Shown: positions 41,603-48,798 of the stretch, in pieces
Layout: each line of letters begins with the position of its first letter
Numbering within the stretch: position 1 is the first letter of the stretch
DNA from: Natrialba chahannaoensis JCM 10990
GTDB lineage: Archaea; Halobacteriota; Halobacteria; Halobacteriales; Natrialbaceae
Direction of reading: 5' to 3'
Assembly (NCBI RefSeq): GCF_000337135.1
Contig: NZ_AOIN01000060.1
Coordinates: forward strand, 1 to 64,000
DNA length: 64,000 nt
Made by a program: the position numbers and the translations under genes
The notes under the pieces: generated by a model
What the model saw: the letters and a program-made list of their open reading frames with translations, nothing else
The model's database searches: none
Told to the model about the DNA's origin: nothing

Positions 41603-41897
41603 AGATCAAGTCTCTCTCGCGAAGTATGGTAAGTATATTCGCCCCACATCCAGTCACCGCTGACAGCGGCGGCCTCGTGGCGAGTAGTCGAAAGAGCACT
41701 GACCAAGTGGGGACTTTCGCAACTGAGAGGTGGGTCAGGGATCAAATCGTAACCCGTATGGATGACACGACACGAAACGAACTGCTATCGGCGACCGAGC
41801 ACAGTTGACTCGTGGACGAATGCATCCATTACGTGAACTGTCGTCAGTACTTGGTTGACATCCACCTCCGCCTGAAGGCGGAGGGATCCCGAGTCAA

Positions 41898-41938
41898 GCG
41901 AATCGAAGATTCGCGTACATCGCAAATCTCCGATTTGC
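41898..41938. repeat. double-hairpin repeat, copy B
   Basis: On the plus strand: stem GCGAATC, loop GAA, stem GATTCGC, 7-base spacer GTACATC, stem GCAAATC, loop TCC, stem GATTTGC. Both stems are perfect. It sits between the tnpB stop and the right-end hairpin, exactly where the guide RNA scaffold would lie; the first element has no such insert at the matching position (after CCCAACG). Copy A (42993-43037) has the same loops, order and spacer length with other stems. Confidence 0.75.
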
Positions 41939-41952
41939 TCAGCGTTGGGATA

Positions 41953-43265
41953 TTAGGGTTTGCAGTCTCCCTGCTCTCTCGGTGTGAACCGTCCGCTCTC
42001 GCGGTCGAACAGGAAGACTCCGGGCTGTGCCAACCAGCCGTTACTCATATCCCCCGTCGGGGGACTCTGAGTTATCCTTCTGTGAATGTTCACCGCACCG
42101 TTCACGTCTGCGTTCATCGTCGTTTTGCACGATGAACAGACGTACAGCCCGCGCTCCACGCGATTCGAGTCATGAATCTGCCCGCAACACGAACACGTCT
42201 TCGACGTATTCTCCTCGTCAATTCGATCAACGAGAATGCCGTGTTCCTCCGCCTTGTATTCAAGAAGGCGAGCGAATCGGTCAAACTCCCACCCGTGGAG
42301 TTTTTTTGTTCCCCGACGAACCCCAGTTCCGCGAGTCGCCGTTCTCATCCTCGCGGATGTCGCTGAGGTCGCCAACTGCGATCTCCCCCACACATTCTTC
42401 TACACACCGGTCAACGATGTGCCTTGAGAGCGTGTGGAGGAAGTGGTCTTTGCGCCGGGAGAGTTTCTGCCTAGCCTTCAGCGCACGTTTGGACGGGCCG
42501 TTCTCGCCTTCGGTCTGGTATTCCTCGCGGGTGAAGTAGTGCTTGTCTTCTTTCAGCACGTTCCCCGGGTACAGCTCGGCAGGACCGTCTTCGTAGTCGA
42601 TGGCAAGATAGTTGCTGATACCGAGGTCGATCCCCGCTGTCCTGTCACCGGGTGCGTCTTCGACGGGGATCTCTTTTTTGCAGACGAGGTGGAGTTCCCA
42701 CTCGTCGCCGTTCCAGACAGCACGCACCTGTTGGATGTTCTCGGCTTCTACGTCGGGACGGGTTTTGTACTCCGCGAGGATGAAGTCAGACCGACCCTCT
42801 TTCAGGTTGAATCCTTTCGAGAGACGGAGTTGGCCGTGTTTCGTGTCGTGCTTGATGGCCCGTTTCTTCCACGTCACGGTAGAGCGTGGGTGTCGGTCGC
42901 CATGTTTCCGGTAGCCCGGTGGGTTGTTGCCGTCGTCGGACTTGTACCAGCCGGTGAACGCCTCAGCAAGTTCTTCGAGAACTCGCTGTGCTCAATGAGC
43001 GAAGCTCATTGGCATCACGAGACGGCTCCGCCGTCTCGAACGAACTTGACTGAGAATGCAGGTCACTGTAGCGTTCGTGGTCTTTCAACTCCGTTTTGAG
43101 TTCGGCTTCGTCAGGTATCTCACCGTCTTCGTCCCACCGACCTTGGATATAGTAACGTCCGACGTTCCACAGTTTGGATGCTGCGAACCCGCACTGGTCG
43201 AGGTCGTCACGAACCTGACTGTGGTTCGGGATACGAGCGACGTATGTGCGGGTTGTCTCCAGCAT
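41953..43265 (-). pseudogene. tnpB: broken TnpB (IS1341-type), two frame breaks
   Basis: The N-terminal piece (MLETTRTYVARIPNHSQVRD onward) is open until a double-hairpin insertion near 43037. After it the frame shifts, and coding resumes with VLEELAEAF and then MTWKKRAIKHDTKHGQLRLS. The RuvC-I Asp lies in GIDLGISNYLAI. At 42301-42307 a run of seven A (coding strand) breaks the frame again between GNKK and LHGWEFDRFARLLEYKAEEH, after which the zinc finger CSCCGQ...CSSCK and the RuvC-III region MNADVNGAVNIHRR follow to the stop. The A7 tract could slip, but the insertion makes the gene inactive. This tnpB is a different subtype from the one at 28 kb. Confidence 0.8.
42993..43037. repeat. double-hairpin repeat, copy A (inserted in tnpB)
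   Basis: On the plus strand: stem CAATGAGC, loop GAA, stem GCTCATTG, 7-base spacer GCATCAC, stem GAGACGGC, loop TCC, stem GCCGTCTC. Stems are perfect 8-mers. The element, with a few flanking bases, splits the tnpB frame after the codons for SQSS; the expected continuation QRVLEELAEAF resumes in another frame. Same loop triplets, order and spacer length as copy B. Confidence 0.75.
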
Positions 43266-43468
43266 CGCACTATGTTCATAACTTGGTATGTGGACCTCTA
43301 TATTAAAGCATGGGCTCGTGGAATATCCAACCGATTCATAGAATTGGAGCCTGTGAGATGGGTTGTCGGATTCATCTTGCGGCTAAAGCCGCAGGTATTC
43401 TCCTTGCCGATCTATAACTGAGCGGTCCAAAAAGGTTATAATTGCCAGCGGGTAAGCCACGCATAGAG

Positions 43469-43783
43469 ATGGTAGTCGAAATCGCACCGCTGTTCATCCC
43501 TGGTGCACCCGGGGGTCCGGAACTATTGATCATCCTTTTCATCGCCATTCTGCTGTTCGGGGCGAACAAGATCCCGAAGCTGGCACGGTCGACCGGCGAG
43601 GCCATGGGCGAGTTCCAGAAGGGGCGTGAAAAGGTCGAAACAGAACTCGAGGAGATGCGCGACGGAGACTTCGAGGGCGACCTCGACGAGGACGACGAGT
43701 TCGTCGACACCGAACCGGTGACGTCCGAAGACGACGAAACCGAGACCGAGACCGGGACCGAAACGGAAACGAGCACGAACTAA
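43469..43783 (+). CDS. tatA: twin-arginine translocase subunit TatA
   Basis: A 104-residue Tat pore-forming subunit. One N-terminal hydrophobic helix (PELLIILFIAILLFGANKIP), a short hinge with the FG/N motif, and the amphipathic helix KLARSTGEAMGEFQKGREKV precede an acidic Asp/Glu/Thr tail of about 40 residues (DDETETETGTETETSTN) typical of halophiles. It exports folded proteins, probably including the two Tat-signal proteins in this window. The ATG at 43469 gives MVVEIAPLFIPGAPGG, the normal haloarchaeal start. It is intact although its surroundings are full of broken genes. It lies just upstream of a tRNA gene. Confidence 0.93.
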   Translation: MVVEIAPLFIPGAPGGPELLIILFIAILLFGANKIPKLARSTGEAMGEFQKGREKVETELEEMRDGDFEGDLDEDDEFVDTEPVTSEDDETETETGTETETSTN

Positions 43784-43794
43784 CAGTTTTCCCG

Positions 43795-43867
43795 GGGCGT
43801 GTGGCCTAGCGGAGAGGGCAGAAGGTTCCTAACCTTCTGATCGTGGGTTCAAATCCCGCCACGCCCG
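43795..43867 (+). tRNA. tRNA-Arg (anticodon CCT)
   Basis: The cloverleaf reads directly: acceptor GGGCGTG with CACGCCC and discriminator G, D-arm GCCT...GGGC, anticodon stem GAAGG/CCTTC around loop TTCCTAA (anticodon CCT, decoding AGG), five-base variable loop, and T-arm GTGGG-TTCAAAT-CCCGC. CCA is not encoded. All stems pair, with G-T only at two places. It follows tatA by 11 bases. Confidence 0.95.
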
Positions 43868-44169
43868 TCCGCGACGAATGGACGTGAGGAGCGGACGGGG
43901 ACGGGATTTGAACGAGAGAAGACGCGCACAGCGCAGCGAGCACGTCGTCGCGTTGTTCGAATCCCGCCACACCACCGAGCCGCACCACGAATCACGCTTC
44001 CGTTTTCTCTTGGACGACACAGGACAGGCTACAGCACGACGAAAAAGCAACAGCACCAGGCACCTTGTACTCGAGTACGATCCAATTTTGGATTCGTCTC
44101 TCGATTGCTGTCTGTTCCTGTCGTTAGCCGCCGTACTGCTTTAATCCGTCTACCCCACCTACGAGACAA
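43868..44169. other. intergenic stretch with tRNA-derived pieces
   Basis: The 302 bases after tRNA-Arg hold no protein gene. They contain an inverted copy of the T-arm (GGGATTTGAAC, 43903-43913) and a direct copy of the tRNA 3' end (43954-43973). A minus-strand open frame rich in WRDLNPR-like residues is produced by these tRNA pieces and is not a gene. The remainder up to the SDR stump shows nothing recognisable. Confidence 0.55.
43954..43973 (+). repeat. duplicated tRNA-Arg 3' end (att-like)
   Basis: GTTCGAATCCCGCCACACC matches the T-arm and 3' acceptor strand of the adjacent tRNA-Arg (43847-43865) at 17 of 19 positions, 107 bases downstream and in the same direction. Duplication of a tRNA 3' end is what integrases leave behind. 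No integrase gene remains nearby. Confidence 0.5.
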
Positions 44170-44385: not shown

Positions 44386-44625
44386 CGTGGTGAGTAAATG
44401 CACCGTGTGGCAGCCATATTAACGTACGCTCGTTGGCGGACAACAGACCGAACCCGTCGGCTTTCCTGATCTGTCTTTTTTCGAACAGTATCCCGCACCG
44501 GTCGACACGGTGTGTGCCACCAGACCACCAGCCGGCAGTACGTGTCGAGGAGTTGACCTCCTGAGTTATCAGATATGGTAATGAGCGGATGAATTTTTTG
44601 AAGGGTGACTGAGAGGGACGGTATA

Positions 44626-47600
44626 ATGGCTATTGACGAAGCCGACCAACCGGATGCTGATGGCGCGTCGACGGGTGAGGCGTCGGCATCTGGGTCGGGG
44701 GATGCAGGCTCCCACGAGTCGGACGCCGGTTCGGGATCCGGCGTGCGTGTCGGCGAGTATACGTGGGCGGATTTTATGGAGGAGTATGGGTACAGGGACG
44801 AGGTCGAAACGGTGTACTCGGGCCTCGAACGCGACAACGAGACTACGGACCAGCTCGGACTCGACACCGACGAAGCGCCCGAGCCGGTGGTTCCGACGGA
44901 CACAGACTTCGCGGATGTCTCGTTCGACCCCGAACCGTATCTCGGCTACACACCGGACGACCTTCATGACCGTGTCATTCCGATGGCTGGGTCGAACTAC
45001 GACGCACTCAAGGAGCCGTTCCTCGAGTACGTCGACCCAGAGACGACGCCGGTCGTCAAGGATGTCTGGACCTGGGAACACTACAAGTGGGAGTACTACT
45101 ACGAGGACGACGGCAGTCGACCGCGCGATAGTGACGGCGAAATTGTTCGCCACGACAAGGAGGAGTCCCTTGGGTTCGATCCAGACACACTCGAGGACCG
45201 CCTCTCGATCGCCGACGACATCGCGATGGAACTCGACGATGTCGTCGAGGAGCGGACGGTCAACATTCAGGACGACATCGACGAGGACGAGTTCTTCTCG
45301 ACCGCAGATGGGAACACGACCGTCAGCAACCGCTACGATCTCGAGAAGACGGTGCCGATGGAGAAGAAGACCCACTACCGCGAGATCGAGCGCTACTGGG
45401 TGAACAAACCCTACGCCTTCGTCGTCATCTTCCACTCCGAAAAGGAGAACGAGAAGAAGTACTACATGGTCGAACCGCACCTGAACGAGATCGAACTCGA
45501 GTTACAAGATTTTCTCTCGGGCAAACTCAGGAAGGCGATCAAGTACTCCGACGACGGCGTCAAGGAGAAGGCGAACGAGGACGGCCGCCGGATCGTTATC
45601 GAGGACGAAACACGCCAGTTGCTACAGCGCTATGACCTCTTCGAGAAGACATCGGGGAGCAACAAGGCAGGGATTATCGAGACGATTCAGACGCTACTCG
45701 ACGACGAGGAAGAAGACGATGAGGACGACGGCCCGGCCCAACTCGAGGGCATCGAGGTACGTCCAGAGCCGATCATCCTTCTGGAGGATCCCGACACGCT
45801 AAACGAATATCAGGTCGAGAAGCTACTCTACTTCCTCAAGCGCAACTTCATCGGCTACGAGCGGATCGACGGGATCAAACACGACATCAACGTCGAGGAC
45901 ATCTCCGTAGACGGCTACAACTCGCCTGTCTTCGTCTATCACTCCGAGTACGAGCAGATCATCTCGAACATCTACCACGGCGAGGATGAACTCGACGACT
46001 TCGTCGTCAAACTCGCTCAGCGATCCGGGAAGGGGATCAGTAAACGGCTGCCGCAGGTGGACGCGACACTACCGGACGGATCGCGTGCCCAGCTTACGCT
46101 TGGCCAGGAAGTCTCCGATCACGGGACTAACTACACCATCCGTCAGTTCAAGGACGTGCCGTTCACCCCGATCGACCTCATCAACTGGAACACCTTTAGC
46201 CTGGACGAGATGGCGTTCCTCTGGCTCGCTATCGAGAACCACAAGAGCCTGATCTTCGCCGGGGGTACGGCATCCGGGAAGACGACCTCGCTGAACGCGG
46301 TCTCGCTCTTTATCCCCTCGAGTGCGAAGATCGTCTCCATCGAGGACACACGCGAGGTCGAACTGCCCCAGCGGAACTGGATCGCGAGCGTCACCCGGCC
46401 TTCTTTCGCCGACGACGAGCAGGGTGATGTCGACGAATTCGACCTGCTGGAAGCCGCGCTCCGACAGCGCCCAGACTACATCGTGATGGGTGAGATCCGT
46501 GGTGAAGAAGGTCGAACGCTGTTCCAGGTCATGTCGACGGGTCACACCACCTACACGACGTTCCACGCAGACTCCGTCGACGAGGTCCTCAAACGATTCA
46601 CGACGGACCCGATCAACGTCTCGAAGACGATGTTCACCGCGCTGGACCTAGTCTCGATCCAGACCCAGACGCGGGTGCAGGGCAGGAAGGTCCGCCGGAA
46701 CAAGTCGCTCACCGAGATCAACCACTACGAGGCCGAACACGACGAGATCAACGTTCAGGACGTCTACCAGTGGCAGGCAGAAACGGACGAGTTCCTCAAG
46801 ATGGGGGACTCGAACACCTTAGAAGAGATCCAGTTCGACCGCGGGTGGAGCACCGAGAAACTCGAGAACGAACTGTTCAAACGCGAGGTCATCCTCGCCT
46901 ACCTCATCAAGAACGGCCTCAACACCTACGCCGAGGTCGCGGCGACGGTGCAGGCGTTCATCAACGACCCAGACACAATCTTGACGCTCATCGCGAACGG
47001 GCAACTCGAGAACAGTCTGGAGGACCTCCGCGAGATGGAGAGTGTCCTGATCGATGTCGACCAGGAGAAAGAGGAGCTCGTTCCCCGCCCGGACGCGACG
47101 AGCGAGACGTACAACCTCTCGATGGATCTGCTTGAGCGGGCCGAGGAGTCGCTGTTTGAGGAGTACCGCGGAAAGGTACCAAGCGGCCTCGCGAGTTCAT
47201 TGGGCGAGGTCGAGAGTGAGGACCCGATCGAGGTCGACAACGGGGACGACGAGTTCGACTTCGCAGGAGACATCGACGACGGCCTCGCGGACGAGTGGAC
47301 GTTCGGCGACGGGACGGCGCAGTTCGCGACGACGGCGGGAACTGCGACGGCCGACGCGGATGACGACGAACCGGACTGGTTCGATGGCTCCGACGACAGC
47401 GGGTTCGGTATCGAAGCGACCCCTGCTGAAACCGGAGCGAGCGCCGATTCCGGTCCTGCTGCTGGTCCCGCCCCCGGCTCAGGCTCTGACTCGACGGCCA
47501 ACACGGACTCCGAACCGTCGGGTGTCGGGGCATCGGTCGACGGCGCAACGGCTGGCGGCACAACTGACGTTCCAGACACTGCCGACGACTTCGGGTCCGG

Positions 47601-48798
47601 AGAGCCGCCAGCGTGGAACGTTGACGAATCGGCTGACGACGAAAGCCTCTTCGACGGTTCAGCGGCCGGTTCTTCCCAGCAGTCAACGCCAGCAGGTCAC
47701 CAGTCGCCAGCGTCGACAGCCGAGACAGACACGCACGACGATGTCACAGTCTTCCCATCGGACGACCCCGACGACAGCGACTTCGGCGGCCTCTTCGACG
47801 ACATGGGCGAGACGCTGGACGAACTCGAGTCCGCCGCTGCAGAGTCGCCAGAGACGGACGACGCAGAGCGTGTGTCGACGGCTGATGGCGATGCGATGTT
47901 CTCGGGCGACGAACTCGAGGACGTGTTCGATCCGGACCCGGAACCGATTGCGGACGATAACGAAGGAGACGTTCCGGAATCGTCGACGAAAACGGGGGCG
48001 ACAGCTGGGGCGACTGGGGATGAAGATGTAGCTGCGGATGCAGACGACAATGCAACGGAGGCAGGAACCGAAACGACACCAGAAACAGCGGCCGACTCCG
48101 CTGTCGATGAGACGACCAACGCCGAAGGTCGCAACGATCAGCGCGACGACGACAGCGAGTCCGCTGACACGTCCCAATCGTCGGCCGACCAGCCAACCGT
48201 CCCCGACAGCGCGGTTCCGTCAATCGAACTTGGCTCCGGGACTCCCGTCGACGGGCACGGACCCGGTGTCGGTGCTGGCCCCGGTACCGGGCCAACAGCC
48301 GAATCTGAATCTGGATCCGAACCTGTATCCAAATCCGGAGCTGGCGAAAACGAGCAGGCCGAAGAGGCGGAACTGTCGTTCGACGAGGCGGATATTGATG
48401 CCGACGATGGAGGTGCTGGTACTGGAACTAGTGCTGCTCCTGATGCTGACGACCAGCAATCCACCGAGGACGACGCAGTCGAGTCGGACGCTGCCACCGA
48501 GGAATCGAACTCGATCTTCGGTGACCAGTCCGAACCGGTCTTTGGTGCGGACGAATCGGACGCAGACGCACAAGCTGTCCGAGACGACGCAGAAGACGGG
48601 TCGCTGTTCGACGATGCAGAGAGTGGGCCGAAATCCAGTATCTTTACGGATACCGACGACGCTGGCGAAGTGAGCGACGTGCCGGAAGATGGTGGAGACC
48701 CGTCCAACGACGGTGGGGACGATAGCAACGCTAACACCGAGAGTACCGACGACAGCAACACCAGCGCCGGCAGCAACACAACGGAGACCGACGAATGA
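44626..48798 (+). CDS. pilB: type IV pilus assembly ATPase PilB (GspE/VirB11-like) with very long acidic tail
   Basis: About 1390 residues from ATG 44626 (a GTG at 44605 is possible). Residues 1-110 are an acidic leader and residues 110-500 the N-terminal domain of archaeal secretion ATPases. The motor has Walker A GGTASGKTTSLNAVS (about 546-554), the Asp box IEDTREVELPQRNW, Walker B DYIVMGEIRGEEG (near 620) and the His box TGHTTYTTFHAD. The family normally ends near residue 850; here a further 510 residues rich in D, E, S, T, G and A follow, without predicted fold. It overlaps pilC by four bases (ATGA). It powers assembly of the pilin-like proteins encoded downstream. Confidence 0.92.
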   Translation: MAIDEADQPDADGASTGEASASGSGDAGSHESDAGSGSGVRVGEYTWADFMEEYGYRDEVETVYSGLERDNETTDQLGLDTDEAPEPVVPTDTDFADVSFDPEPYLGYTPDDLHDRVIPMAGSNYDALKEPFLEYVDPETTPVVKDVWTWEHYKWEYYYEDDGSRPRDSDGEIVRHDKEESLGFDPDTLEDRLSIADDIAMELDDVVEERTVNIQDDIDEDEFFSTADGNTTVSNRYDLEKTVPMEKKTHYREIERYWVNKPYAFVVIFHSEKENEKKYYMVEPHLNEIELELQDFLSGKLRKAIKYSDDGVKEKANEDGRRIVIEDETRQLLQRYDLFEKTSGSNKAGIIETIQTLLDDEEEDDEDDGPAQLEGIEVRPEPIILLEDPDTLNEYQVEKLLYFLKRNFIGYERIDGIKHDINVEDISVDGYNSPVFVYHSEYEQIISNIYHGEDELDDFVVKLAQRSGKGISKRLPQVDATLPDGSRAQLTLGQEVSDHGTNYTIRQFKDVPFTPIDLINWNTFSLDEMAFLWLAIENHKSLIFAGGTASGKTTSLNAVSLFIPSSAKIVSIEDTREVELPQRNWIASVTRPSFADDEQGDVDEFDLLEAALRQRPDYIVMGEIRGEEGRTLFQVMSTGHTTYTTFHADSVDEVLKRFTTDPINVSKTMFTALDLVSIQTQTRVQGRKVRRNKSLTEINHYEAEHDEINVQDVYQWQAETDEFLKMGDSNTLEEIQFDRGWSTEKLENELFKREVILAYLIKNGLNTYAEVAATVQAFINDPDTILTLIANGQLENSLEDLREMESVLIDVDQEKEELVPRPDATSETYNLSMDLLERAEESLFEEYRGKVPSGLASSLGEVESEDPIEVDNGDDEFDFAGDIDDGLADEWTFGDGTAQFATTAGTATADADDDEPDWFDGSDDSGFGIEATPAETGASADSGPAAGPAPGSGSDSTANTDSEPSGVGASVDGATAGGTTDVPDTADDFGSGEPPAWNVDESADDESLFDGSAAGSSQQSTPAGHQSPASTAETDTHDDVTVFPSDDPDDSDFGGLFDDMGETLDELESAAAESPETDDAERVSTADGDAMFSGDELEDVFDPDPEPIADDNEGDVPESSTKTGATAGATGDEDVAADADDNATEAGTETTPETAADSAVDETTNAEGRNDQRDDDSESADTSQSSADQPTVPDSAVPSIELGSGTPVDGHGPGVGAGPGTGPTAESESGSEPVSKSGAGENEQAEEAELSFDEADIDADDGGAGTGTSAAPDADDQQSTEDDAVESDAATEESNSIFGDQSEPVFGADESDADAQAVRDDAEDGSLFDDAESGPKSSIFTDTDDAGEVSDVPEDGGDPSNDGGDDSNANTESTDDSNTSAGSNTTETDE

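Follow-up and report, generated by a model that had tools for sequence, protein, structure and literature searches.

Tiny palindromic mobile elements that lack a transposase are an open puzzle. Among the closest described systems are the small mobile repeats SMR-A and SMR-B of Haloquadratum walsbyi (Dyall-Smith et al. 2011, PMC3119063), which are haloarchaeal and transposase-less, cause no target duplication, lie mostly in IS605-type elements, which they have been proposed to inactivate, and whose mobilisation was called enigmatic. SMR-A elements measure about 110 bp (one SMR-B, 80 bp), are bounded by prominent terminal inverted repeats, keep a constant sequence and occur mostly outside ORFs (PMC3119063). 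Palindrome-associated transposable elements (PATEs) are likewise haloarchaeal, transposase-less and palindromic, reach down to 52 bp and insert without target duplication (PMC3119063). REP, BIME and REPIN sequences with their TnpA-REP are short non-autonomous palindromes, often composite, that belong with the IS200/IS605 enzyme class; REPs have a GTAG tag, and those of E. coli also have conserved stem positions (PMC8266576); the RepRanger paper on REPs holds no haloarchaeal detail. The double-hairpin elements of fungal mitochondria are short adjacent hairpin pairs with evidence of mobility and no flanking duplication, organellar and mostly intergenic, and are not known to target transposon genes site-specifically (PMC10085805, PMC2800124).

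Comparison with these systems frames the two double hairpins described here, A and B, which on balance are probably copies of two related families of putative transposase-less mobile micro-elements (about 49–67 bp) of Halobacteria. Like the SMRs, they show no target duplication and a preference for IS605-type elements (B mostly in tnpB; A in tnpA, tnpB and right ends), but by description they are set apart by their size of 49–67 bp rather than ~110 bp, two hairpins, fixed linkers, variable stems and frequent position inside tnpB or tnpA codons, and terminal inverted repeats are absent from one family (TCGTT...AGCA) and weak in the other (CTGAGC...GCTTGA). PATEs carry IS605 end palindromes and a terminal oligonucleotide; the hairpin pair of A and B is another one, and their ends differ too. 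The stem-base tag of REPs and REPINs (GTAG or CGTC) is missing, and in its place there are free stems and the fixed parts TCGTT, TGATGC and AGCA, or CTGA, GAKGTMC and TTGA. The mitochondrial elements, compared by description, match A and B in behaviour: hairpins in adjacent pairs, evidence of mobility and insertion without flanking duplication. The sequence-only reading of this DNA knew of no such family. Searches of open-licence papers turned up no account of prokaryotic double hairpins with fixed linkers and variable stems, but the statement calls for qualification, as the Haloquadratum SMRs (PMC3119063) and the fungal mitochondrial elements are close in kind.

Both copies lie on the minus strand of a single IS605-type element in the window, which is the whole 64 kb stretch of DNA that was analysed. 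The features are as follows.

41864..42077, minus strand: sot0042-like RNA (sense overlapping transcript, omega-RNA region; Rfam RF02656), containing copy A
41865..41884, minus strand: right-end terminal hairpin CCTCCGCC-TTCA-GGCGGAGG, then GTGGATGTCAA, seen in the sequence and conserved in the alignment of relatives
41894..41942, minus strand: A-type element (copy A), 49 bp, read on the minus strand as CTGA-(GCAAATC GGA GATTTGC)-GATGTAC-(GCGAATC TTC GATTCGC)-TTGA
41898..41914, minus strand: second A-type hairpin, 7 bp, TTC loop (GAA on the plus strand)
41915..41921, minus strand: A-type linker GATGTAC
41922..41938, minus strand: first A-type hairpin, 7 bp, GGA loop (TCC on the plus strand)
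41953..43265, minus strand: tnpB of an IS605-type (tnpB-only) element, from ORFs and OrfB_IS605 and Cas12f1-like_TNB domains
42989..43043, minus strand: B-type element (copy B), 55 bp, TCGTT-(CGAGACGGC GGA GCCGTCTCG)-TGATGC-(CAATGAGC TTC GCTCATTG)-AGCA, in tnpB between codons SQSS^QRVL
42993..43011, minus strand: second B-type hairpin, 8 bp; TGC...GCA lengthens the stem beyond a bulged A
43012..43017, minus strand: B-type linker TGATGC
43018..43038, minus strand: first B-type hairpin, 9 bp
Empty tnpB site: CAGTCAAGTCAGCGAG

On the plus strand copy A reads GCGAATC-GAA-GATTCGC (41898–41914), spacer GTACATC and GCAAATC-TCC-GATTTGC (41922–41938), and copy B reads CAATGAGC-GAA-GCTCATTG (42993–43011) and CGAGACGGC-TCC-GCCGTCTCG (43018–43038). 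No other hairpin in the 64 kb window combines a GAA or TCC loop with a stem of at least 7 bp, and folded as DNA the two elements reach z-scores of -5.3 and -6.8. The sequence-only reading had pointed out both double hairpins and the perfect pairing of all four stems, and it was right in this, with corrections on spacer, loops and family number. It gave the spacer as exactly 7 in both copies, but the second stem of copy B in plus-strand order is 9 bp long and the spacer is therefore 6 nt, against 7 nt in copy A. Because its two stems are alike, copy A can alternatively fold as a single long hairpin, a fold that A-type members with dissimilar stems should not adopt. The expected placement of one copy in the guide-RNA and right-end region agrees with the position of A in the sot0042 match (82.2 bits and E 5.6e-21, sub-threshold at a gathering score of 88 but strong), and copy B does split tnpB, as had been noted, with an exact empty site in relatives. 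The window tnpB is broken twice, once by the copy B insert and once more by a frameshift near 42330.

Alignment of the window element with 32 others from its own genome and relatives revealed exact empty sites for both copies. The A site, CCCAACG|CTCGGG in most of the 32, belongs to the sot0042/omega-RNA region, where by inspection it coincides with the loop of the small hairpin ATCCC-AACGCTC-GGGAT. The B site, CAGTCAAGT|CAGCGAG, is empty in most aligned relatives and occurs in its empty form in 91 of 243 genomes; the ends of the B insert are unambiguous. No target duplication accompanies either insertion. The comparison of empty and filled tnpB genes that had been suggested thus yielded exact ends for both copies, and the proposed behaviour as a small mobile unit is borne out.

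The sequence-only reading had treated both copies as one family. Because their ends and linkers differ, they represent two related families, and stems vary freely inside each. B-type elements (TCGTT-hairpin-TGATGC-hairpin-AGCA) keep their ends, linker and hairpin bases constant; the stem interiors, which vary by lineage, and the loops are variable, for a total length of 53 to 67 bp. With the fixed parts as query and gaps left free, it was found in 28 of 392 genomes of the haloarchaeal order, with no matches to a reversed-pattern control, and at 40 loci in GTDB contigs, every one haloarchaeal by title; it was absent from IMG/VR. When the linker was omitted from the query, TGATGC and the same right end still followed at all 18 of 18 left junctions. 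Insertions occupy mostly one codon boundary, SQSS^QRVL, across divergent tnpB genes and in the same orientation throughout, with a few intergenic sites (e.g., in Natronococcus, inside GTCGGCGCGAAG^CGCCGAC). Two Natronomonas loci (L146 and L102) hold 67-bp B-type elements with longer stems, 4-base loops and unchanged ends and linker.

The A-type (CTGA-hairpin-GA(T/G)GT(A/C)C-hairpin-TTGA), which shares this division into fixed ends, linker and hairpin bases and variable stem interiors and loops, occurs in 53 of 382 haloarchaeal genomes against three control matches, the linker GA(T/G)GT(A/C)C being part of the search pattern; several of the loci analysed come from MAGs. Four classes of A-type site were seen: IS right ends (the window case); CPK^YR in tnpA, in antisense orientation and with a joined ORF that encodes a Y1 transposase; LMR^YNDE in another type of tnpB; and TGA^TGA, the linker within an additional double hairpin, CGTT-hairpin-TGATGA-hairpin-AAC. 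This last class comprises nine nested copies, one of them in the own genome (L313), and three uninterrupted hairpins, and the nested copies therefore provide independent evidence of precise insertion. The invariant ends and linkers, the use of one insertion codon across many divergent tnpB genes, the A-type insertions in tnpA and the nesting all go beyond the earlier reading. Intergenic multi-hairpin arrays with the A-type exactly in the TGA^TGA linker were observed at L313 (G000:C92:85600-87600, where G000 is the own genome), L119, L185–L189, L191 and L196. Seven A-type pattern matches in viral contigs, considered as a sign of viral carriage, were chance, their arms mostly unpaired.

In the unique sequences compared (51 A, 34 B), Watson-Crick pairs made up 93–98% of the variable inner stem positions, compared to 60–68% when the 3' arms were shuffled among sequences, and the covariation of stems that had been claimed is confirmed. 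The conserved loops, conversely, did not survive the comparison: relatives sharing stems carry GAA, AAA, TTC, GGA, TCC and others, including both complementary forms (GAA and TTC) on identical stems. What recurs is the GNA loop, present in 56 of 85 triloops closed by C-G (29 and 27 on the two strands) but in 85 of 775 background short hairpins, and GNA loops form extraordinarily stable DNA mini-hairpins (PMC4686876). Mismatches were G.T in seven cases and A.C in eight, with no RNA-strand bias apparent. The enrichment of C-GNA-G on either strand and the equal G.T and A.C mismatches therefore point to folding of the A and B elements at the level of DNA rather than RNA.

Paired hairpins (stem of at least 7 bp, triloop, spacing of 3–12) are far from a background feature. 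The scan proposed earlier, in which pairs no commoner than in shuffled sequence were to count against the elements, found 18 against 0.8 in first-order Markov resamples for 1.2 Mb of a relative (G023) and 3 against 0 for 0.33 Mb of the own genome, and so that refutation fails. The loop-and-spacing pattern alone (CGAAG...CTCCG) was rejected as a family mark, its matches being mostly chance (4 in the window for the loose form, 3.75 expected).

It could be argued that the pairing reflects no selection and that template switching or cruciform repair copies one arm onto the other in each hairpin. The occurrence of GAA and TTC loops on the same stems and the perfect pairing of elements even in dead genes fit such copying, which nonetheless leaves the invariant ends and linkers, the GNA enrichment and the insertions themselves unexplained; as the source of the covariation it is unlikely, though it may operate in addition to the best explanation.

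That best explanation, a mobile micro-element, would involve an enzyme acting in trans that reads the double hairpin when the DNA is single-stranded and folded. Hairpin bases, linker and ends would be recognised by sequence and the stems by pairing alone, and stem interiors would be free to drift because pairing is all that counts. Joining would be precise, into a short conserved target and without target duplication, and the insertion would act as a hyperparasite of, or a brake on, IS200/IS605 elements. More tentatively, there may exist a class of prokaryotic mobile DNA recognised by paired DNA hairpins of arbitrary stems and fixed linkers and moved by a recombinase of single strands; through its specialisation on IS200/IS605 genes, such DNA would be a natural restraint on TnpA and TnpB elements.

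Part of the spread could run through homologous recombination between tnpB copies. In its strongest form, one old insertion per site would have been passed among tnpB copies by recombination or gene conversion via the flanks, without element-specific machinery. The single site and single orientation of every tnpB insertion would follow, as would the strong conservation of about 10 bases on either side of it and the homogeneity of inserts inside a genome, where tnpB paralogues have inserts that are 98–100% identical. The flanks of these paralogues are only 66–94% identical, however, and in nearly all comparisons still 14–34% diverged, and the non-tnpB, tnpA and nested sites require new insertion, so that conversion through tnpB flanks explains part of the spread only and as the sole process seems improbable. 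In two genomes, the tnpB genes L062 and L075 are almost identical, differing by an exact 55-bp block and scattered substitutions, and in a tree of 54 TnpB proteins, whose bootstrap had not fully converged, filled and empty copies are interspersed, with at least 7 changes forced by well-supported branches. One TnpB clade that seemed almost always filled reflects sampling bias, since its empty sites are common.

Should the micro-elements be minimal IS200/IS605 derivatives moved by TnpA (the Y1 HUH transposase), in the manner of PATEs or REPINs, the hairpins close to both ends, the lack of target duplication and the targets within the same IS family would be expected, as would the hairpin followed by GATG, which by eye resembles the IS right end (GGATGTCAA). 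Y1_Tnp was also somewhat commoner in carriers (21 of 27) than in other genomes (20 of 40; p = 0.04), though these are draft assemblies, past loss is possible, and carriers have more tnpB genes anyway (median 18, compared to 7 in comparison genomes). Against this origin, Y1_Tnp went undetected in six of the 27 draft carrier assemblies, one of them with three filled tnpB copies; the left-flanking words at non-tnpB B sites (AAGT, CAGT, GAAG, ACAG, GGTG and GCCG) do not form the fixed tetra- or pentanucleotide expected of it; and the perfect triloop stems are without the bulges and GTAG tag read by known TnpA and TnpA-REP (PMC8266576). TnpA is the first enzyme to suggest itself as the mover, yet a TnpA-driven derivative is doubtful.

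The effect on the host gene bears on the brake that the micro-elements are suggested to impose. Filled copies are a sporadic minority of tnpB sites, and in many of them removal of the insert in silico restores tnpB ORFs of 400–500 aa. Genes were otherwise intact in 18 of 33 filled and 29 of 30 empty cases (p = 1e-4), with filled loci found by the insert and empty loci by the empty site, a longer exact match that therefore somewhat favours intact genes. This decay argues that the insert most likely inactivates tnpB, is not silently removed and is often recent; alternatively, insertion may strike tnpB genes that were dead beforehand. Bulge-helix-bulge introns exist in archaea, and because the joined ORFs are intact an intron was initially suspected. 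A silent mini-intron or translational bypass, which would keep the insert out of the mature RNA or the protein and leave tnpB functional, was at first favoured for these restored ORFs, the exact and conserved site and the circular omega RNAs of haloarchaea (PMC12558985), but was dropped as very improbable after the filled-versus-empty comparison, as the decay of filled genes indicates no selection on the host ORF with the insert in place, filled copies are sporadic, the A-type lies antisense in tnpA, and neither matching take-off and landing codons nor a bulge-helix-bulge at the junctions was evident by eye.

For the puzzle posed by transposase-less palindromes, A and B supply precisely defined ends, invariant linkers, nested insertions and dozens of sites, filled as well as empty. 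Their freely varying stems make recognition of structure and of sequence separable by experiment, and both families mark conserved spots of tnpB and tnpA that have been struck repeatedly in nature.

Other double hairpins were observed along the way. A third kind, GACGAGACGC-AAA-GCGTCTCGTC, CGCACA, TCAGAACGC-GAA-GCGTTCTGA, lies in the C-terminal linker of tnpB at two loci of the own genome (L053:9080-9160 on G000:C80; L057:11550-11620 on G000:C44), and its half TCAGAA...TTCTGA-GGACG was seen again in G023 with other stems. On contig G023:C1 (L205–L264) more recurring double hairpins have fixed linkers of their own, e.g., CGCGGG..CCCGCG-AACCRTGCGA-ACGGGC..GCCCGT, and are probably additional families of like kind. 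Elsewhere in the window, tRNA-Arg(CCT) at 43795–43867 is followed by what by eye is a degraded repeat of its 3' arm in inverted orientation (GGGATTTGAAC...GTTCGAATCCC; region 43795–43980), possibly an old integration scar. Also by eye, a 1397-aa ORF (44605–48798) resembles an ATPase of the secretion type that carries a very long acidic tail, and a short ORF at 43442–43783 looks TatA-like.
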